From: Prochloron sp. SulCav_FS08_3_32_3330
Lineage (GTDB): Bacteria > Cyanobacteriota > Cyanobacteriia > Cyanobacteriales > DYNF01
Length of the DNA stretch: 64,000 bases
Direction: 5' to 3'
Assembly: GCA_020721205.1 (NCBI GenBank)
Contig: DYNF01000001.1
Location: 1 to 64,000 of the forward strand
This document shows positions 12,041 through 44,133 of the stretch, in pieces. Made by a program: the position numbers and the translations under genes. A model generated the notes under the pieces. It was not told the DNA's origin and searched no databases. It saw nothing but the letters and a program-made list of their open reading frames with translations. How positions within the stretch are numbered: position 1 is the stretch's first letter; every line of letters begins with the position of its first letter.

Positions 12041-13195
12041 CTAATTAAATAAATCATTTAAAAAATTATTTCCTGTAGTTTCTAAATCCGTATCTAAAGC
12101 AAAATTTAAACTTCTAATATTAATTTGTCCAGTGGTAACATTTAAAGATTTTTCTATATTAGGATAAATTAAAATCGCATTTTTACAGTGTTTTTGGGTT
12201 GCATAACTAACTATTTGATGAAAGTCGGGATGCTTAAATTCTGTTTTATATTTCGTATCTAATACATAACAAGCTTGATCTGTTTTTTTATTATAAATTA
12301 CTAAATCAATATTAAATTTTAAATCTTCATTAATTTTGATTCCTTCATGAATTTTAAGTTTAAATTCTGATGGTAAATTTTGTTTTAACCATTGTGCCAC
12401 AAACTGCTCATAAAGTTGTGCCATATTCACTAAAAAGGGTAAAGTATTATCATTTCCTTGATGATGACTAGGGGAAAGATGTTGTAAGAAAAAATAACAA
12501 ATAATGTGCATTATTTCGTAATCTTGATTTAAACGATTATATTTTCTTTTAATACATTCTTGGGGTTGAAATTGTTTTAATGTAATCGAATATTGTAAAG
12601 CATGATAGGCTTTTCTAATCCGAGAATGAATATTTTGATTAAACATTTTACTTCGACTTAAACAGTTTAATGTCCATAATAAAATTTGATTTTCTTCTAT
12701 ATCATTAGTTTGATCTTGATATTGACAGTTTAATTTAATATTATAGGGTTTTTGGATTAATTTTTTTAGATTAATTTTTCCTTTAATTGTTGTTAATTCA
12801 TTTTCTCGATTAATATAAGTTGTATATAAGCCTTTTTTGGTCCGATTAATTATTTTTTCTGTCAAAGAAATCGCAAAGCGATCGCAAAAATCAGTTAAAC
12901 TTTCACAGTTAGCAATCCCATCTAAAAAATGAAAACTTTTTAAATTTAAAGCATAGTTTAACATAGCAAATAAATTTTTAATCGAAACTTTAGGATTAAT
13001 TTTAATCGCAAAATTAGAATTTAAAGGAATAAAACCTACCCAGCCTTGAGAAGTTAAAGACATTTTATCTTGACCATTTTTTCTAATAATATTTAATTCA
13101 ATTTGTTTATAATATTTAGTTTGAATTAAATCAATAATTTCATCTTGACGAGGAATTATTTTAGTTTTATATTCAGTTAATTCAATGATTTTCAT
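12041..13195 (-). CDS. mcrC: McrC-like restriction subunit with PD-(D/E)XK nuclease
   Basis: QGWVGFIPLN, nuclease-like NIDLVIYNKKTDQACYVLDTKYK, position next to mcrB. Confidence 0.85.
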   Translation of the reverse strand: MKIIELTEYKTKIIPRQDEIIDLIQTKYYKQIELNIIRKNGQDKMSLTSQGWVGFIPLNSNFAIKINPKVSIKNLFAMLNYALNLKSFHFLDGIANCESLTDFCDRFAISLTEKIINRTKKGLYTTYINRENELTTIKGKINLKKLIQKPYNIKLNCQYQDQTNDIEENQILLWTLNCLSRSKMFNQNIHSRIRKAYHALQYSITLKQFQPQECIKRKYNRLNQDYEIMHIICYFFLQHLSPSHHQGNDNTLPFLVNMAQLYEQFVAQWLKQNLPSEFKLKIHEGIKINEDLKFNIDLVIYNKKTDQACYVLDTKYKTEFKHPDFHQIVSYATQKHCKNAILIYPNIEKSLNVTTGQINIRSLNFALDTDLETTGNNFLNDLFN

Positions 13196-13223
13196 TCTAA
13201 TATAATTATATTATTTAATATAG

Positions 13224-13277
13224 GTTTGTTGTTGCACTTTAGTGCTATCTTATTTGTGCTAAAGCACCACAACGAAC
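13224..13277. repeat. GTTTGTTGTTG..GCTAAAGC palindromic repeat between mcrB and mcrC
   Basis: GTTTGTTGTTGCACTTTAGTGC ... GTGCTAAAGCACCACAACGAAC. Confidence 0.75.
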
Positions 13278-13282
13278 TTTTT

Positions 13283-14893
13283 TTAAATTAAAATTTTATC
13301 CTTAATTTTTCCCCAACGAAAATTACTAATTTTCTCATGATCATCAAAGAAATATTCTTCTAAATAAGGCTCAATTTCCATAAGCCAAATATCTTCAATA
13401 TTTTCCTTTAATTCTATTGTTAAAAAGAAAGAAATACCCAATTCATAATGAGGATCATTAATCGTTTTATTTAACTCTTTTAAAACCTTAATTAAACTAT
13501 CAATATTTAACTGATTATTCCCTTTATGATAAGCTTTTAAAATATCATAATTAGAGTTAAGAGTAATAAAAGAAAAACGCCGACGTAAGGCATGATCTAC
13601 TAAAGCGATCGAGCGATCAGCCGTATTCATTGTACCAATAATTCTGACATTTTTAGGCATCGAAAAAACCTCATTACTTCCTGCCAATTTAATATTTTGT
13701 TCTCGATATTCTAATAAATACATTAACTCACCAAAAATAGAAGCAAGATTACCTCGATTAATTTCATCTATGATTAAAACACAAATTCCGTCGCATTTTT
13801 GGGCATTTTCACAAAATTCTAAAAAACGCCCTTTGATCATATTATATTCTAATTGTCCATGATTAGAAATTGGTCTTATTCCTTGAATAAAATCTTCATA
13901 ACTATAACTAGGATGAAATTGTACCAATTCTGAAAATCCATCATTATTACTAATTAAATACTTCGCTAAATATTGAGCTAAAAAAGTTTTACCTGTGCCG
14001 GGAGAGCCTTGTAAAATTATTTGTTTTTTACGGTTAATTACTTTAATAATTGTTTCAATTTTTTCCTGTTTAAAATAGGTATCTTGACATAAATTTTCAA
14101 GGTTATATTCAGGATTAATAAATTTTGTTTCAGTTTCTATATCTTCTAAATTTTCTAATTTTGTATAATTTTCTAAACTAACTAAATATTCTTGAATTTT
14201 ACTTATAGGATCATCATTAATAGTAATTAAAACTAAAGGAAATAAATTTTGATACATATTAATAATATAATTACTTAATTCCAATTGAGAATAATTTAAG
14301 ATTTCTTGACGAGGAATAATCACAGCAATATGTAAATCTTCTTGGGCAATATTTTGTAACCAACTTTCAGGCGTAATCTGATTTTGACTAACTATTTCTT
14401 GATTTTCATTAAGATAATAATTATCTCGACTTCCTAAATAAATTTGATTACTAATATTATAAATATTTTTGATTAAATCAATAATATAATTTTGATTATT
14501 CTGACAAAAATTTATGAATTTATCTCTTTCTTGACTTTCATTTTGACTAATATAAAAACCAAATTCTAAAGTTTCATAATTAAGAAACAAAAATAATTGA
14601 ACATCCTCTATTTTATTACTATTTTTTGTCGAAAAAGTACCCCAAATAAAATCAGGAGTTTTATTTTTGATATAATAATTTTTGGGAGAAAATAAATTTT
14701 TTTCCGTTTCCATTAAATCAGTAATTTCTAAAGGAAGTTGAGAAGCAATATAACTAAATAAAGTCTTAAAAGGATTTTCTACATATTGTTTAAATTCGTC
14801 TTTATTTTTATCATAAAATTCTTTATTAGGGTTATCATGTAATTGTTTTAATAAGGCAAAAGTTTGGCTATTAAAATAAGATTTTTCATTCAT
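13283..14893 (-). CDS. mcrB: McrB-type AAA+ GTPase with DUF2461-like N-terminal region
   Basis: GSPGTGKTFLAQYLAKYL, VLIIDEINRGNLASIFGELMYLLE, GTMNTADRSIALVDHALRRRFSF; N-term YFNSQTFALLKQLHDNPNKEFYDKNKDEFKQYVENPF. Confidence 0.88.
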   Translation of the reverse strand: MNEKSYFNSQTFALLKQLHDNPNKEFYDKNKDEFKQYVENPFKTLFSYIASQLPLEITDLMETEKNLFSPKNYYIKNKTPDFIWGTFSTKNSNKIEDVQLFLFLNYETLEFGFYISQNESQERDKFINFCQNNQNYIIDLIKNIYNISNQIYLGSRDNYYLNENQEIVSQNQITPESWLQNIAQEDLHIAVIIPRQEILNYSQLELSNYIINMYQNLFPLVLITINDDPISKIQEYLVSLENYTKLENLEDIETETKFINPEYNLENLCQDTYFKQEKIETIIKVINRKKQIILQGSPGTGKTFLAQYLAKYLISNNDGFSELVQFHPSYSYEDFIQGIRPISNHGQLEYNMIKGRFLEFCENAQKCDGICVLIIDEINRGNLASIFGELMYLLEYREQNIKLAGSNEVFSMPKNVRIIGTMNTADRSIALVDHALRRRFSFITLNSNYDILKAYHKGNNQLNIDSLIKVLKELNKTINDPHYELGISFFLTIELKENIEDIWLMEIEPYLEEYFFDDHEKISNFRWGKIKDKILI

Positions 14894-15207: not shown

Positions 15208-18200
15208 CTAAAGCCCAACTACAAACAAGTCCTCCATTTCTTTAATAATTTTCATCGTTTCTATACTCACAGTCGTAACTCTTTTTAATAAATCAATTAC
15301 GGTTTCTTTATAATCAGCAAAACAATAATTATTGAATTTTTCGGCAATAGTTGGATCCTTTGGTTTTTTCTCTTTATATTGATCTAATATCCATTCTAAT
15401 GCTGATCTATTTCCTAATTTATATTCCCATACTTCGGGAGGAATTTCTGTTAATGTTGTTACATCATCTAAGATTATTTCATTTTTGATTTTATCGGCTT
15501 TTAATTTAGGTTTAAGTTGCTGATTACTTTTGAATTTTGAATTTTGAATTTTGAATTTATATGGTTTAATTGTTTCATAATTTAAGTGTAAATCCATTAA
15601 TTTTTTACCCCAATTTACCCACATATAAAAATCATCATAAAAGGGGATTCTCGGAAATTCTCTCTTTAAATTTAATTCATATTTCTTTCTATATTCAGGA
15701 TTATGTAACACAGCATAAACATAATAAAATATATTTTCTTTGGTAATTTCATTTTGAATTTTATAATATTCCCTAAACTTTTCTAATCCCCAATCTGTTA
15801 TATTTTCTTGTCTTTTCCCTTCTTTATCATAAGTATATAAAGGTAAGCATTGAGTTTTTTCTAAAATATCTAAACAAAATATTTGATTAGTTGCTAATAC
15901 TGAAAATGATTTAGATGAACTTGTCCCTGAAAACATTATTAGCAGATTATTCTTAGTTAAACTTGAGGAAAAGATTTCATAATGATTAGAAGTTAGTCGA
16001 TCTGATAATATTTTTTCAGAGTAATATAATTTACTAATAAAAGGACGATAATAAAATTTAACAATTAAATCTTGATCAAAATTTAATTTACTATAATTTG
16101 ATAAATTAGTTTTTAAAGTAGCACTCCATTTAATCCGATAATCTAAATTATCATTTTTTTGATTTTGTTCTTTCTGATCATTATAAATTTTGAGAAAATA
16201 TAATATTTTTTCAATTAACTTTTCAGAATTTTCATCTGTTACCCATTCATCTCTTGCTGTTACAACACCATTAGAATATAACTTAAAAATAGCTTTTTCT
16301 TCAGCTTTATTTTTAGATAATTTTGTTTCTTTATTCGCTACAGAAATTAAACTATCAAAATCATTTTCATCTGCTAAATTAATCCAATTATTATTTTGAT
16401 CGGGAATAATATGATCAAAATCAATCTGATCTAATTTATAAGATGATAAAAATTGAAGTTTATCAATAGCTAACTCCTCATCAGGGCGAGAAGTATAATA
16501 TATTTTACAAGGTGTCTTATTTTGGTTATTTTTCTTAATTAAAAAACTAATAGCTACCCCTGTTTGAATACCAAAAACATTATGAGTAGTACCTGCAATT
16601 TTCGGATTTTTTCTCACATCTCCATCTAAATCAATAATATAAATTTCACTAAATTCTTGACTAACTAATTTTCTAAAACCATCAAAAGTTCTCGCATTAA
16701 TAAAAGAAGAATTAGTAATAAAAGCAATAATTCCATTTTCATTTAATCTATCTGTTGCCCATCGAAAAAAGCGAGAATACATATCATAAACTTTAGTTTT
16801 TTGTGCCGTACTTTCCTTAACATAAGTAGCTTTAATTCTTTTATCTATAGCCGGATAATCACGATTTTTATTATTATCATTTTCATTTTGTTGATTAGCA
16901 TTATAGGGAGGATTACCAATAATTACGGAGATTTTCTTCTCATTTTGTCGTTTAATTCTTGCCGTATTTTCCAAAGACATCGCAAACATATCCATCTGTT
17001 TCCCCTCAAAAGAAGTATGATCCAAAGTATCAACAAAACAGATATTATTAAACTCTAAATATTCCCCCATTTTTTGCTGATAAGAATACTCAATATTAAG
17101 ATTAGCAATATAATAAGGTAAAATCGAAACTTCATTACAATGAATTTCATTTTGATACTTATATTTTAAATCTTTAGTTAATAAAAATTCTAAAATTTCC
17201 GTAATAAAAGTACCCGTGCCAGTGGCTGGATCTAATATTTCTACTCCTTGATCACCTAAACTTTTTTGAAAATGTTTATGTAATAAATAATCCGTACTTT
17301 CTACCATAAACTTTACAATTTCATTAGGCGTATAAACGATACCCAATCTATCAGCCGCCAAAGGATTATAAGCCTTATAAAAATTCTCATAAACCACCTT
17401 TAAAAACTTCTGTTTTTCGTGGTGATTAACAATATTACTAGCAGTGCGAATAATCACACTATAATAACTTTCAATCGTCTTTAAAGTATTGCGTTTAAGA
17501 TTACCAGTAAAGAAAGTTTTGATCACATTTTGTAACTGTAAAGCGATATTATTTTCCTGATGAAATTGACTTTCATTAAAAATATTATTAAAAATATCTT
17601 CCGTTAAAATATGTTGAATAATCATCTCTCGAATATCATCCACATTAATATTAGAATTAATGGAATCTTGACAAACTTTTAAAAATTCCAGAAATTTTTG
17701 TTTAAATTCTGTATTATTGCCCTCACCCCCAGCCCCTCTCCCACTGGAGAGGGGAGTTTTTTCGTTAATTGATCCAGATCCCCCCCCTCGCCCTTGGGAG
17801 AGGGGGGCAGGGGGGGTGAGGGCTAATTCTTGATTAATTAAATTTCTTAAAGTATTAATAATTGTGGGTAAATCTTCCTTAAAAGAATTAATTGCTTGAC
17901 GAAAATCCTTAACTTCTGCCCTTTCAAAATCTAAAAATTGATTAATAATTTTATCTAAATCTTCAGGATTTTTCATATCAATCCTTAAAGATTCTATGCC
18001 ATTTTGAATTAAAATAGCGGTATTAGTATCCTCAAAAATAATATTATCCGTAGGATATCCTTTAGCAATTTTCGCCTCAATTTCTGCCTCTAAACTATCT
18101 TTTTCATCCTTCGCTTCCCAATAACCCCAATCAAGCCTTAAAGCATCTTTAATAATACCATCAATGCGAACTTTTGTACCTAACTTAGTCGCAAAATGTA

Positions 18201-18351
18201 ACTCATCAACTAAAATAAAATCTCGACTTTTGCAATAATTATTAAGTAAATTACCAAAAGCAAAACGAATAGATTGCTCATTGCGACTACCGCCAAAACG
18301 GATCCGATCTTCTAAATCTTTATAATATTGATTAATGAGAATACGAGACAT
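15208..18351 (-). CDS. Type ISP/IIG-like restriction-modification fusion protein (nuclease-like N-term plus N6-adenine methylase)
   Basis: VRIDGIIKD..YWEAKDE, methylase motifs ILDPATGTGTFITEIL and VIIGNPPYNANQ; ATG at 18351 plausible (ORF opens at 18399). Confidence 0.85.
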   Translation of the reverse strand: MSRILINQYYKDLEDRIRFGGSRNEQSIRFAFGNLLNNYCKSRDFILVDELHFATKLGTKVRIDGIIKDALRLDWGYWEAKDEKDSLEAEIEAKIAKGYPTDNIIFEDTNTAILIQNGIESLRIDMKNPEDLDKIINQFLDFERAEVKDFRQAINSFKEDLPTIINTLRNLINQELALTPPAPLSQGRGGGSGSINEKTPLSSGRGAGGEGNNTEFKQKFLEFLKVCQDSINSNINVDDIREMIIQHILTEDIFNNIFNESQFHQENNIALQLQNVIKTFFTGNLKRNTLKTIESYYSVIIRTASNIVNHHEKQKFLKVVYENFYKAYNPLAADRLGIVYTPNEIVKFMVESTDYLLHKHFQKSLGDQGVEILDPATGTGTFITEILEFLLTKDLKYKYQNEIHCNEVSILPYYIANLNIEYSYQQKMGEYLEFNNICFVDTLDHTSFEGKQMDMFAMSLENTARIKRQNEKKISVIIGNPPYNANQQNENDNNKNRDYPAIDKRIKATYVKESTAQKTKVYDMYSRFFRWATDRLNENGIIAFITNSSFINARTFDGFRKLVSQEFSEIYIIDLDGDVRKNPKIAGTTHNVFGIQTGVAISFLIKKNNQNKTPCKIYYTSRPDEELAIDKLQFLSSYKLDQIDFDHIIPDQNNNWINLADENDFDSLISVANKETKLSKNKAEEKAIFKLYSNGVVTARDEWVTDENSEKLIEKILYFLKIYNDQKEQNQKNDNLDYRIKWSATLKTNLSNYSKLNFDQDLIVKFYYRPFISKLYYSEKILSDRLTSNHYEIFSSSLTKNNLLIMFSGTSSSKSFSVLATNQIFCLDILEKTQCLPLYTYDKEGKRQENITDWGLEKFREYYKIQNEITKENIFYYVYAVLHNPEYRKKYELNLKREFPRIPFYDDFYMWVNWGKKLMDLHLNYETIKPYKFKIQNSKFKSNQQLKPKLKADKIKNEIILDDVTTLTEIPPEVWEYKLGNRSALEWILDQYKEKKPKDPTIAEKFNNYCFADYKETVIDLLKRVTTVSIETMKIIKEMEDLFVVGL
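17719..17823. repeat. G/C-rich palindromic repeat inserted in-frame in the R-M gene
   Basis: GCCCTCACCCCC ... GGGGGTGAGGGC terminal inverted repeat, 105 bp = 35 codons (ALTPPAPLSQGRGGGSGSINEKTPLSSGRGAGGEG). Confidence 0.85.
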
Positions 18352-18484
18352 AATATTATTACCTAAAAATTTTATTTTAATGTTAGCATAATTAGACACA
18401 AAAATAATATTCCTTATTTTGTATCAAACGTAAAATTTTACCTCTCTACTGCCTTACCTTAGTCGGGCTAAAGCCCTACAGGGA

Positions 18485-18669
18485 GAGGGCGTTTTTATTC
18501 TTTTTTTTGCAACAGATTAAAATCTGTTGCTACCCAAACGAAACCCGTCTTTACGGGTTTTCTGATTAAATATTAACTAATATTAAAAAAATTCAACCTG
18601 CGTAGGCAGGTTTTGCTTATGTAGCAACGGGTTTCAACCCGTTGCTTTTTGGAAAATGAAAACGCCCTG
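18485..18669. mobile_element. Composite-palindrome MITE-like element, copy 2
   Basis: AGGGCGTTTTTATTC ... GAAAACGCCCTG flanked by CTACAGGGA on both sides. Confidence 0.8.
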
Positions 18670-18679
18670 CTACAGGGAG

Positions 18680-18839
18680 CAGGGCGTTTTCATTCTTTTT
18701 TTTGCAACAGATTAAAATCTGTTGCTACCCAAACGAAACCCGTCTTTACGGGTTTTCTGATTAAATATTAACTAATATTAAAAAAATTCAACCTGCGAAG
18801 GCAGGTTTTGCTTATGTAGCAACGGGTTTCAACCCGTTG
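18680..18839. mobile_element. Composite-palindrome MITE-like element, copy 3 (right end truncated)
   Basis: Starts CAGGGCGTTTTCATTC, ends CAACCCGTTG; flanked by CTACAGGGAG on both sides. Confidence 0.75.
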
Positions 18840-18965
18840 CTACAGGGAGAGGGCTAAAGCCCTACTACAAACTTTTTTAGATAAAATAATATTTAGGAAT
18901 AGCTACTTATTTGTTCATTAACTATTAAAATAAGAACTAAATATTGATTATTAATTATTAATTAC

Positions 18966-22264: not shown

Positions 22265-22319
22265 GTTTGTTGTTGGGGTTTAGATCTAGCTAGGTGGTGC
22301 TAAAGCACAACAACAAACT
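22265..22319. repeat. GTTTGTTGTTG palindromic repeat
   Basis: GTTTGTTGTTGGGG ... GTGCTAAAGCACAACAACAAAC. Confidence 0.7.
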
Positions 22320-28373: not shown

Positions 28374-29666
28374 ATGAGTCAATCCATTATTCAACTTGTT
28401 GACCAACTTCCTAGCGATAATATTACCGTTAAAGTCCTCAAAGCACTGGACTTTATCGCCCCCGGACAATGGACAAATACCGTCGGTTTTGACCAAACTA
28501 TTCGAGTAGTTACGGGAGAACATGATCCTACTAAAATTCAGCGTATTAAAGAGAAAGCTTTAGCTCTTTATGAGGATGATAAAAATGGTTATAAAAGTGC
28601 GATTTCCCTTTATCAAATAGTAGATAAAGCTGATACTGCTATGGCAACCGCCGCTTTAGCTAATAAAATAGGAGAAAAGATTGAATTTCTCTCTTTTCTG
28701 AATAAGATTACCCCGAAAGCTGATACTGCTCAAACGATTGATTTAGTCTTAAAAGTTGTTATTGAAATTATCGCTTTTTGTAAGATTAATGGAATGCCCC
28801 AACCTAATCCACAGGTATTTGTTGAGTCTTTAACTAATAATTATACCGACGCTTCTTTAATGCGTATGGGGGCATTAGTTTGTTTAGATGGACTGTTACC
28901 TTTAGTACCTGATTTCTTAAGTAAAATTCATTCAATTATTGATGGTGGCGACGATTCTTTAGTTAAAGATAACCCAATTTTTAGCTCCATTAGTAATAGT
29001 TTACCCGGAGATAATCCCACCGCAAAATTTGGTTTTATTACCCAAAGTTTTAACGCTGTTCAAGGTTGGATGAATGGTTTAATTAGTAAAACTGGAGTAA
29101 CTCCCTCTGCTATTTTTCAAAAAATTGGTAGTTTTATTCAAGTTGCTGATGATAGTTTAGATTTTGTTGCCGCTTTTATTGATCAAACTACTAACTATTA
29201 TGAGCATACAGGTATTCAAAGCGTAGCCAGAAGCCTCATTTTAAAAGCATACGAATCTGTTAAAAATGAGCTTCCGTCCACCTCTGATCTAGACTCTAAA
29301 TCCTCTGAGAAAGGTGAGTTTAAAGTGGGGCAACTGGTAGATGCCCTCAGTGAAGACTATTGGTATTCTGCTACGATTCGGGAGATTGAAGGAAAACTGT
29401 GTTTAGTACGTTATCTTTATAATAATGATCCGAGTGAAGATGAGTGGATTAAGAAAAAAAATCTTCGTCCGGCGGGAACTAAGTATAAAGTTGGGGATGA
29501 AATTGAAGTTTTATACAGCGATGGAGAATGGTATGAGGCTGAAATTCTCGAAATTGACGGTGATACTTATTTAGTAGAATATACGGATGAGGAGTTTTAT
29601 GATGAGGATGATGATGAGGGAGAAACAGAAAAAGTAGCTTGGCAACGTATTTGTTGCGAAGATTAA
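28374..29666 (+). CDS. Hypothetical protein with tandem C-terminal Tudor/Agenet-like modules
   Basis: FKVGQLVDALSEDYWYSATIREIEGKLCLVRYL...YKVGDEIEVLYSDGEWYEAEILEIDGDTYLVEYTDEE. Confidence 0.75.
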   Translation: MSQSIIQLVDQLPSDNITVKVLKALDFIAPGQWTNTVGFDQTIRVVTGEHDPTKIQRIKEKALALYEDDKNGYKSAISLYQIVDKADTAMATAALANKIGEKIEFLSFLNKITPKADTAQTIDLVLKVVIEIIAFCKINGMPQPNPQVFVESLTNNYTDASLMRMGALVCLDGLLPLVPDFLSKIHSIIDGGDDSLVKDNPIFSSISNSLPGDNPTAKFGFITQSFNAVQGWMNGLISKTGVTPSAIFQKIGSFIQVADDSLDFVAAFIDQTTNYYEHTGIQSVARSLILKAYESVKNELPSTSDLDSKSSEKGEFKVGQLVDALSEDYWYSATIREIEGKLCLVRYLYNNDPSEDEWIKKKNLRPAGTKYKVGDEIEVLYSDGEWYEAEILEIDGDTYLVEYTDEEFYDEDDDEGETEKVAWQRICCED

Positions 29667-33952: not shown

Positions 33953-34183
33953 TTTTTTTAGTGCTAAAGCACAACAACAAACTTTTATTTTTTAGTGCTA
34001 AAGCACAACAACAAACTTATTTTTTAGTGCTAAAGCACAACAACAAACTTTTATTTTTTAGTGCTAAAGCACAACAACAAACTTATTTTTTAGTGCTAAA
34101 GCACAACAACAAACTTTTATTTTTTAGTGCTAAAGCACAACAACAAACTTTTATTTTTTAGCGCTAAAGCGCAACAACAAACT
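33953..34183. repeat. Tandem array of seven ~32-34 bp hairpin repeats
   Basis: TTTTTAGTGCTAAAGCACAACAACAAACTT(TT)AT x7; last unit GCGCTAAAGCGC. Confidence 0.95.
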
Positions 34184-42152: not shown

Positions 42153-42245
42153 TTAGAAATGTTAGGATTAGAACCAGACTGCAAAAATTAAAGTTTAAAA
42201 GTATTACCCACAGAATCAGTTGACACTTATCTCACAATTTTATAA
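42153..42245 (+). pseudogene. Decayed 3' fragment of the retropepsin-like gene (copy 0)
   Basis: LEMLGLEPDCKN*SLKVLPTESVDTYLTIL*: internal stop where copies 1-4 have Q. Confidence 0.85.
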
Positions 42246-42264
42246 TAATAACAGGGAAATTATT

Positions 42265-42717
42265 ATGACTTCAATACTTAATTTATCTCAAAAAGTTATG
42301 GGCAAAGTACACACAAAATTAACAATTATTAATCGTGGTGATCAAATTCGTGCTAAAGATGGCACAATTACTGAAGACAAAATTAGATCTGTCACTTTAG
42401 ATAGAGTTTTAGTAGATACAGGGGCGACTACTCTTTGTTTACCTCCTGAAATTATCGCTAAATTAGGACTAGAATTACTCAAAGAAGTAGATGTCGCCAC
42501 TGCTATGGGTATTGGGAAAGCCCGTATTTTCAGAGATGCTACTATTTCTCTTTACGGTAGAGAAGGCACTTTTGAATGTTTAGAGTTACCCGGAGGAAGG
42601 GATCCCCTATTAGGTGTAATTCCTTTAGAAATGTTAGGATTAGAACCAGATTTAAAAAATCAAAGTTTAAAAGTGTTACCCACAGAATCAGTTGACACTT
42701 ATCTCACAATTTTATAA
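42265..42717 (+). CDS. Retropepsin-like (clan AA) aspartic protease family protein, tandem copy 1
   Basis: VLVDTGATTLCLPPEIIAKLGL; ATG at 42265; 472-bp repeat. Confidence 0.75.
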   Translation: MTSILNLSQKVMGKVHTKLTIINRGDQIRAKDGTITEDKIRSVTLDRVLVDTGATTLCLPPEIIAKLGLELLKEVDVATAMGIGKARIFRDATISLYGREGTFECLELPGGRDPLLGVIPLEMLGLEPDLKNQSLKVLPTESVDTYLTIL

Positions 42718-42736
42718 TAATAACAGGGAAATTATT

Positions 42737-43189
42737 ATGACTTCAATACTTAATTTATCTCAAAAAGTTATGGGCAAAGTACACACAAAATTAACAATTA
42801 TTAATCGTGGTGATCAAATTCGTGCTAAAGATGGCACAATTACTGAAGACAAAATTAGATCTGTCACTTTAGATAGAGTTTTAGTAGATACAGGGGCGAC
42901 TACTCTTTGTTTACCTCCTGAAATTATCGCTAAATTAGGACTAGAATTACTCAAAGAAGTAGATGTCGCCACTGCTATGGGTATTGGGAAAGCCCGTATT
43001 TTCAGAGATGCTACTATTTCTCTTTACGGTAGAGAAGGCACTTTTGAATGTTTAGAGTTACCCGGAGGAAGGGATCCCCTATTAGGTGTAATTCCTTTAG
43101 AAATGTTAGGATTAGAACCAGATTTAAAAAATCAAAGTTTAAAAGTGTTACCCACAGAATCAGTTGACACTTATCTCACAATTTTATAA
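42737..43189 (+). CDS. Retropepsin-like protein, tandem copy 2
   Basis: Identical to copy 1. Confidence 0.75.
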   Translation: MTSILNLSQKVMGKVHTKLTIINRGDQIRAKDGTITEDKIRSVTLDRVLVDTGATTLCLPPEIIAKLGLELLKEVDVATAMGIGKARIFRDATISLYGREGTFECLELPGGRDPLLGVIPLEMLGLEPDLKNQSLKVLPTESVDTYLTIL

Positions 43190-43208
43190 TAATAACAGGG
43201 AAATTATT

Positions 43209-43661
43209 ATGACTTCAATACTTAATTTATCTCAAAAAGTTATGGGCAAAGTACACACAAAATTAACAATTATTAATCGTGGTGATCAAATTCGTGCTAA
43301 AGATGGCACAATTACTGAAGACAAAATTAGATCTGTCACTTTAGATAGAGTTTTAGTAGATACAGGGGCGACTACTCTTTGTTTACCTCCTGAAATTATC
43401 GCTAAATTAGGACTAGAATTACTCAAAGAAGTAGATGTCGCCACTGCTATGGGTATTGGGAAAGCCCGTATTTTCAGAGATGCTACTATTTCTCTTTACG
43501 GTAGAGAAGGCACTTTTGAATGTTTAGAGTTACCCGGAGGAAGGGATCCCCTATTAGGTGTAATTCCTTTAGAAATGTTAGGATTAGAACCAGATTTAAA
43601 AAATCAAAGTTTAAAAGTGTTACCCACAGAATCAGTTGACACTTATCTCACAATTTTATAA
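43209..43661 (+). CDS. Retropepsin-like protein, tandem copy 3
   Basis: Identical to copy 1. Confidence 0.75.
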   Translation: MTSILNLSQKVMGKVHTKLTIINRGDQIRAKDGTITEDKIRSVTLDRVLVDTGATTLCLPPEIIAKLGLELLKEVDVATAMGIGKARIFRDATISLYGREGTFECLELPGGRDPLLGVIPLEMLGLEPDLKNQSLKVLPTESVDTYLTIL

Positions 43662-43680
43662 TAATAACAGGGAAATTATT

Positions 43681-44133
43681 ATGACTTCAATACTTAATTT
43701 ATCTCAAAAAGTTATGGGCAAAGTACACACAAAATTAACAATTATTAATCGTGGTGATCAAATTCGTGCTAAAGATGGCACAATTACTGAAGACAAAATT
43801 AGATCTGTCACTTTAGATAGAGTTTTAGTAGATACAGGGGCGACTACTCTTTGTTTACCTCCTGAAATTATCGCTAAATTAGGACTAGAATTACTCAAAG
43901 AAGTAGATGTCGCCACTGCTATGGGTATTGGGAAAGCCCGTATTTTCAGAGATGCTACTATTTCTCTTTACGGTAGAGAAGGCACTTTTGAATGTTTAGA
44001 GTTACCCGGAGGAAGGGATCCCCTATTAGGTGTAATTCCCTTAGAAATGTTAGGATTAGAACCAGATTTAAAAAATCAAAGCTTAAAAGTGTTACCATCG
44101 GAATCAGTTGACACTTATCTCACCATCTTATAA
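43681..44133 (+). CDS. Retropepsin-like protein, tandem copy 4 (diverged 3' end)
   Basis: Identical to copies 1-3 except the last ~100 bp (e.g. LPSES for LPTES). Confidence 0.75.
   Translation: MTSILNLSQKVMGKVHTKLTIINRGDQIRAKDGTITEDKIRSVTLDRVLVDTGATTLCLPPEIIAKLGLELLKEVDVATAMGIGKARIFRDATISLYGREGTFECLELPGGRDPLLGVIPLEMLGLEPDLKNQSLKVLPSESVDTYLTIL

Follow-up and report, generated by a model that had tools for sequence, protein, structure and literature searches.

A DUF2461/YktB-type domain as a putative recognition module of a cyanobacterial McrB GTPase

The mcrBC operon and its surroundings

The stretch of DNA analyzed here, henceforth the window, comprises 64,000 nucleotides from Prochloron sp. 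SulCav_FS08_3_32_3330 (contig DYNF01000001.1). On its minus strand, an intact open reading frame with an ATG start (13283-14893) codes for a protein of 536 aa, the C-terminal part of which (residues 286-536; 13286..14038) is an McrB-type AAA+ GTPase domain. This part of the protein, for which a reading from the sequence alone had already proposed an McrB identity, is recovered by the Pfam AAA_5 profile (E 3.9e-20), by structures of Escherichia coli McrB (E ~1e-49), and by the NCBIfam McrB model PRK11331 (E 3e-51; 174.6 bits, with an equivalog cut-off of 637). Its motifs are likewise intact, namely, Walker A (GSPGTGKT at residue 296; 13985-14008), Walker B (13754-13783, with IDEINR at residue 375), and the NTAD signature (13616-13627, within MNTADRS at residue 422). 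With this NxxD signature, the protein falls outside the CoCoNuT branch of McrBC, in which NxD takes the place of NxxD and long coiled coils are present.

The mcrC gene (12041-13195) lies downstream on the same strand and codes for a product of 384 aa with the McrBC Pfam domain (PF10117, E 1e-41) and, in a motif scan, a PD-(D/E)XK-type motif, IDLV...VLDTKYK (12236-12310); the McrC model PRK09736 gives it 111 bits, with an equivalog cut-off of 338. The minus-strand spacer of 87 bp between the two genes (13196..13282) contains the palindrome GTGCTAAAGCAC at 13256, which recurs at position 22297 and six times within a 34-bp tandem array (33961-34127).

Upstream of mcrB by 314 bp, and on the same strand, is a Type ISP/IIG-like restriction-methyltransferase gene (15208..18399) with matches to Type_ISP_C (E 2.7e-96), ISP_coupler, and N6_Mtase in Pfam and to REase_MTase_IIG in PADLOC (E 5e-280). 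It is probably a separate system within the same defense cluster as mcrBC. The G+C content of the mcrBC genes is 21-27%, compared with 31% for the window, which would fit a mobile defense cluster. The Type ISP/IIG-like gene also carries an in-frame insertion, ALTPPAPLSQGRGGGSGSINEKTPLSSGRGAGGEG (17719-17823), resembling a small repeat element placed in coding sequence, and a 195-bp direct repeat (18476-18841; 1.9 copies, 98%) separates this gene from recQ.

The N-terminal domain belongs to the DUF2461 superfamily

The N-terminal domain of the window McrB spans approximately residues 1-250 (14144..14893, minus strand). Pfam DUF2461 (PF09365; cut-off, 22.8 bits) matches only a helical region within it, residues 10-54 (14732..14866), with 23.9 bits, or 25.2 bits when the N-terminal part is scanned by itself. 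TIGR02453 matches residues 8-68 with 22-24 bits (22.1 bits), far under its cut-off of 105.4. Since the direct match is marginal, we assessed homology without the window copy. Relatives of the domain were collected from cyanobacterial genomes, a Leptolyngbya boryana plasmid, and contigs of Oculatellaceae, two Verrucomicrobiota, and Trichlorobacter thiogenes, and a set of standalone DUF2461 proteins was assembled by genome searches and from plasmid records covering several phyla. A profile of five relatives, from which the window copy was left out, aligned with the standalone set in hhalign with 97.4% probability (E 1.5e-11) over 200 columns; 60 column shuffles reached at most 2.5%, and reversed profiles reached 0.3-0.4%. 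Eight more distant cyanobacterial members gave 91% against the same set. In the reverse direction, when 297 Thermodesulfobacteriota genomes were searched with the profile of McrB-linked domains, it retrieved an McrB fusion and just two other proteins (E 3.7e-7 and 4.6e-7), both of which are standalone and bear the full DUF2461 signature; one of these (L072) scores 183.6 bits with Pfam DUF2461. The profile-profile match and this reverse retrieval therefore make the DUF2461 homology secure, and we hold the membership of the window domain in the DUF2461 superfamily to be close to certain.

Among the fusions scanned, the window copy is the only one to pass the Pfam cut-off. Sub-threshold matches were obtained in two fusions from other genomes (L067 and L068), the former covering profile positions 2-136, and a PF09365 search of 386 cyanobacterial genomes returned only the window copy and two contigs of one other genome. 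Current profile libraries thus miss most copies of the McrB-linked domain.

Standalone DUF2461 proteins have the motif RxxRDxRFxxx[DN]KxxY in common, most of it invariant in the alignment; this motif is missing from the window copy, which reads PKNYYIKNKTPDFIWG at the equivalent place. In the better-conserved McrB-linked members, among them those of Verrucomicrobiota, Trichlorobacter, and Leptolyngbya, this place is occupied by a long, strongly conserved block of aromatic and charged residues, METEK.IFARI.KNDYG.GGAWDFYWGAFYPKGGKR..DAQLF.W, which includes the elements METEK, KNDYG, and WDFYWGAFYPKG. The alignments show a degenerate form of it (METEK.IFARI.KNDYG.GGAWDFYWGAFYPKGGKR.DAQLF) in the window protein at residues 61-101 (14591..14713), reading METEKNLFS--PKNYYIKNKTPDFIWGTFSTKNSNKIEDVQLF: METEK, KN, DF.WG.F, and QLF are retained, and the remainder of the block is lost. 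To judge from these sequence comparisons, the window domain is a diverged member of the DUF2461 superfamily and not a TIGR02453 protein. Hence, of the DUF2461/TIGR02453 pattern that the sequence-only reading had described, the DUF2461 part stands on the Pfam, profile-profile, and reverse-retrieval results, and the TIGR02453 part falls with its score; the second motif quoted in that reading, FR--RD-RFSKDKTPYKT, is essentially lost from the protein.

Predicted fold and relationship to YktB

A profile and AlphaFold comparison of residues 1-250 with DUF2461 had been proposed as a check; profiles of the relatives yielded the whole-domain match described above, and the AlphaFold model resembles YktB. 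For the window domain (pLDDT 84.5, pTM 0.87) and the Trichlorobacter domain (pLDDT 77.9, pTM 0.80), AlphaFold2 models were built from one set of five sequences. For both, the best solved structure in Foldseek is Bacillus subtilis YktB (2a8e), which we take to be a DUF1054 protein, with a probability of 1.00, E values of 4.4e-7 and 4.7e-8, and TM scores of 0.60/0.70 and 0.67/0.77 for the two predicted models. A second DUF1054 structure, 3mqz, is also matched with a probability of 0.99, and at the sequence level, yktB is matched by the family profile with an E value of 0.0036. A YktB homologue has been described as a DUF1054 protein (PMC3534079). The DUF2461-type domains and DUF1054 thus appear, from the fold and sequence matches, to belong together. 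The likeness consists of the best solved fold for two modeled members and a weak sequence match, whereas YktB is a standalone protein and the identity is about 15%.

Comparison with known McrB recognition domains

The operon resembles E. coli K-12 McrBC in combining an AAA+ GTPase with Walker A and B motifs and NxxD, an adjacent PD-(D/E)XK mcrC, and a module N-terminal to the GTPase; the module itself is MrcB_N/DUF3578 (“ADAM”) in E. coli and of the DUF2461/YktB type in the window. DUF3578, EVE, or another known McrB N-terminal domain had been named as the assignments that would speak against DUF2461; Pfam matched neither DUF3578 nor EVE, and the best solved fold, YktB/DUF1054, is not that of a known McrB reader. 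For MrcB_N, hhalign probabilities of 0.1-0.2% were within the shuffled range, and for EVE, no match was found in the window protein or its N-terminal part at E values up to 10. An MrcB_N search of 118 Thermodesulfobacteriota genomes was without matches, but as its controls were too, it is uninformative. Kinship with the methylcytosine reader MrcB_N of E. coli was considered from the resemblance by eye of KNDYGRGGAWDFYWGAFY to FGYGNFTSIPWFAFL and from weak Foldseek matches of the window model to McrB-N (E 0.1-0.7), which are not seen at that rank with the Trichlorobacter model; with profile comparison negative, we retain it as a lead only.

The module likewise shares with standalone DUF2461/TIGR02453 proteins (PF09365; ~230 aa) a whole-domain profile match and the same order of conserved blocks but differs in being fused to a GTPase, in the missing RxxRDxRFxxx[DN]KxxY motif, and in its TIGR02453 score (22, compared with a cut-off of 105). 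The closest architectural parallels are EVE-McrB and other fusions of readers to McrB (PMC7641849, PMC11090510), which similarly have, alongside mcrC, an McrB GTPase headed by a small, exchangeable N-terminal module, though the module differs. The main texts of the census of McrBC systems and of the survey of EVE domains (PMC11090510, PMC7641849) name neither DUF2461 nor TIGR02453. Our literature search found no paper naming both DUF2461 and McrB or both DUF1054 and McrB and no functional study of DUF2461 or DUF1054; DUF2461 came up only in tables or lists, and TIGR02453 was unmentioned.

Distribution and domain architectures

The survey of DUF2461-McrB fusions suggested by the sequence-only reading showed them to be present in Cyanobacteriota, Verrucomicrobiota, and Thermodesulfobacteriota, where they occur both in McrB lineages that are deeply separated and in related AAA+ proteins. 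Full-length copies of the domain number nine in 386 cyanobacterial genomes, fusion proteins number two in 289 Verrucomicrobiota genomes, and a single McrB fusion occurs in 297 Thermodesulfobacteriota genomes. The fusion adjoins mcrC in Cyanobacteriota, Verrucomicrobiota, and Trichlorobacter. Scans of phage records and viral contigs found no viral copy of either the McrB-linked or the standalone DUF2461 domain, although the pattern scans among them are insensitive.

Three architectures recur. In the window and in five further loci (L003-L005, L012, and L018), the domain is the sole N-terminal module of a GTPase accompanied by mcrC; in five others (L037, L067, L068, L069, and L070), one or more upstream modules precede the domain and the GTPase, again with mcrC. 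In two-gene operons (L032, 2433-6150; L033, 6486-10281; L034, 3370-7012), the domain is followed by TPR repeats and an AAA+ domain, and a second gene comes next, for a nuclease-like partner, which in L032, the one checked of the three, combines DUF2357 and PDDEXK_7 in Pfam. These operons have the appearance of a second restriction-like system using the DUF2461-type domain. In addition, L075 encodes a protein of 617 aa in which the domain is joined to an AAA+ domain.

Six changes of the DUF2461-type label are required on a tree built from 36 GTPase domains. In this tree, the GTPase of Trichlorobacter is placed with that of an McrB bearing MrcB_N and is distant from the cyanobacterial GTPases, and TPR, MrcB_N, and unnamed N-terminal domains are found on neighboring or related GTPases; since several of the deep branches are long, single placements are unsure. 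The close relatives of the window GTPase bear at least four other N-terminal regions, including TPR repeats.

Further McrB N-termini were also noted. Short N-terminal domains are present in the McrBs of L017, L020, L021, L024, L025, and L029, and several of them resemble both ends of the DUF2461-type domain without its middle; as the profile comparison with DUF2461 gives only 7%, homology is unproven. Another domain (FxxLFxEFIxSYPYTxxGLxH...LLINNKSRxVINYF) is common to ten cyanobacterial McrBs (L006, L007, L008, L010, L011, L014, L015, L026, L027, and L031), and in L006, the one scanned, it matched no Pfam family. A third module (YWkIaPGe...GWdElGD...VLGIGTVTG) precedes the DUF2461-type domain in L037 and L067 and occurs without one in L078 and L084, the two pairs being homologous by profile comparison (99.2%); naming it EVE-like was unsupported by Pfam or by a PDB sequence search. 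One match of the first N-domain profile, L060, was discarded as a dGTPase-like protein. Standalone DUF2461 genes adjoin genes for PhzF (L038) and a VOC-family protein (L048), and a Proteus mirabilis DUF2461 gene is near a phenazine operon and EhpR.

Functional considerations

In characterized systems, McrB hexamers hydrolyze GTP, McrC stimulates the hydrolysis and cleaves, and the N-terminal domain gives specificity (PMC11090510, PMC7641849, PMC6344862); as a rule, McrB proteins carry a recognition domain in this place (PMC11090510, PMC7641849). We read the locus as a Type IV (McrBC) operon composed of mcrB and mcrC and lean toward the view that the DUF2461-type domain is its recognition module. 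With no further module recognized by Pfam in either McrB or McrC, this domain is the only candidate for specificity in the operon. We propose that, as in E. coli McrBC, the McrB hexamer would assemble around McrC and that the DUF2461-type domains, projecting from the motor, would bind a feature by which invading nucleic acid is marked; a modified base is the most likely such feature, and some other phage-specific signal is less likely. McrC-stimulated GTP hydrolysis would then drive translocation, followed by cleavage by McrC.

That the domain itself may act as the reader, for which the chances seem even or slightly better, is supported by its being a swappable N-terminal module with other N-domains in its place on closely related GTPases. 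Against this, the window copy has an eroded version of the most conserved block, and the “short” cyanobacterial relatives are without the middle of the domain. In L037, L067, L068, L069, and L070, where further domains come before it, it may not be the reader. Nor can a binding role be carried over from a characterized relative, since neither DUF2461 nor DUF1054 has a known function.

A different possibility, which we regard as rather unlikely, is that the domain is a sensor or regulatory module binding a small molecule, nucleotide, or phage protein and licensing the GTPase, in which case the system would be a triggered nuclease and not a modification-dependent restriction enzyme. The occurrence of the domain on AAA+ proteins of a second type, which have TPR repeats and are partnered by a DUF2357/PD-(D/E)XK protein (L032-L034), its presence on another AAA+ protein in L075, and the standalone DUF2461 genes outside restriction loci are in keeping with such a role; it would, however, leave the canonical McrBC operon of the window with no domain choosing the target DNA. 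Marginally more doubtful still is a role as a structural adaptor that, next to the GTPase, spaces or oligomerizes McrB, with specificity supplied by upstream modules where these are present and with copies like that of the window reduced or decaying. An adaptor might be expected from the position between upstream domains and the GTPase in the five loci with such domains, from the window copy having lost a large part of the conserved block, and from short forms retaining only the domain ends, but it sits poorly with the long aromatic and charged block conserved in other members and with the domain being the sole N-terminal module in the window protein, L003-L005, L012, and L018 and being swapped for others on close GTPases. 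Finally, a DUF2461 match produced by chance or by the composition of an AT-rich, Asn/Lys-rich protein, which the lone above-threshold Pfam match of 45 residues and the near-empty PF09365 search might suggest, is very improbable, being refuted by the whole-length profile match far above shuffles and the reverse retrieval and opposed by the sub-threshold L067 and L068 matches and the concordant fold of the two models.

Returning to the recognition module that we favor, it would extend the known repertoire of McrB recognition domains by one module. The occurrence of the same fusion in other phyla offers a first testable role for DUF2461, and the McrB context makes the roles of both DUF2461 and DUF1054 accessible to standard restriction assays. 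More tentatively, the DUF2461/YktB superfamily could be a previously unrecognized class of nucleic-acid (modified-base) recognition domains, recruited repeatedly by McrB-type motors in several phyla; were this so, reading modified or damaged nucleic acid would be the role of the standalone DUF2461 proteins as well.

Other features of the window

Elsewhere in the window, a 472-bp unit is present in 4.2 tandem copies with 99% identity (42153-44133). Each unit holds an ORF of 165 aa with a DTGATTLCLP motif, by eye a retropepsin-like aspartyl protease, and there are thus four near-identical tandem genes. A protein of 430 aa (28374-29666) has a C-terminal Agenet (Tudor-like) domain (E 2.6e-17); as Agenet domains are mainly eukaryotic, its presence in a cyanobacterium is unexpected.
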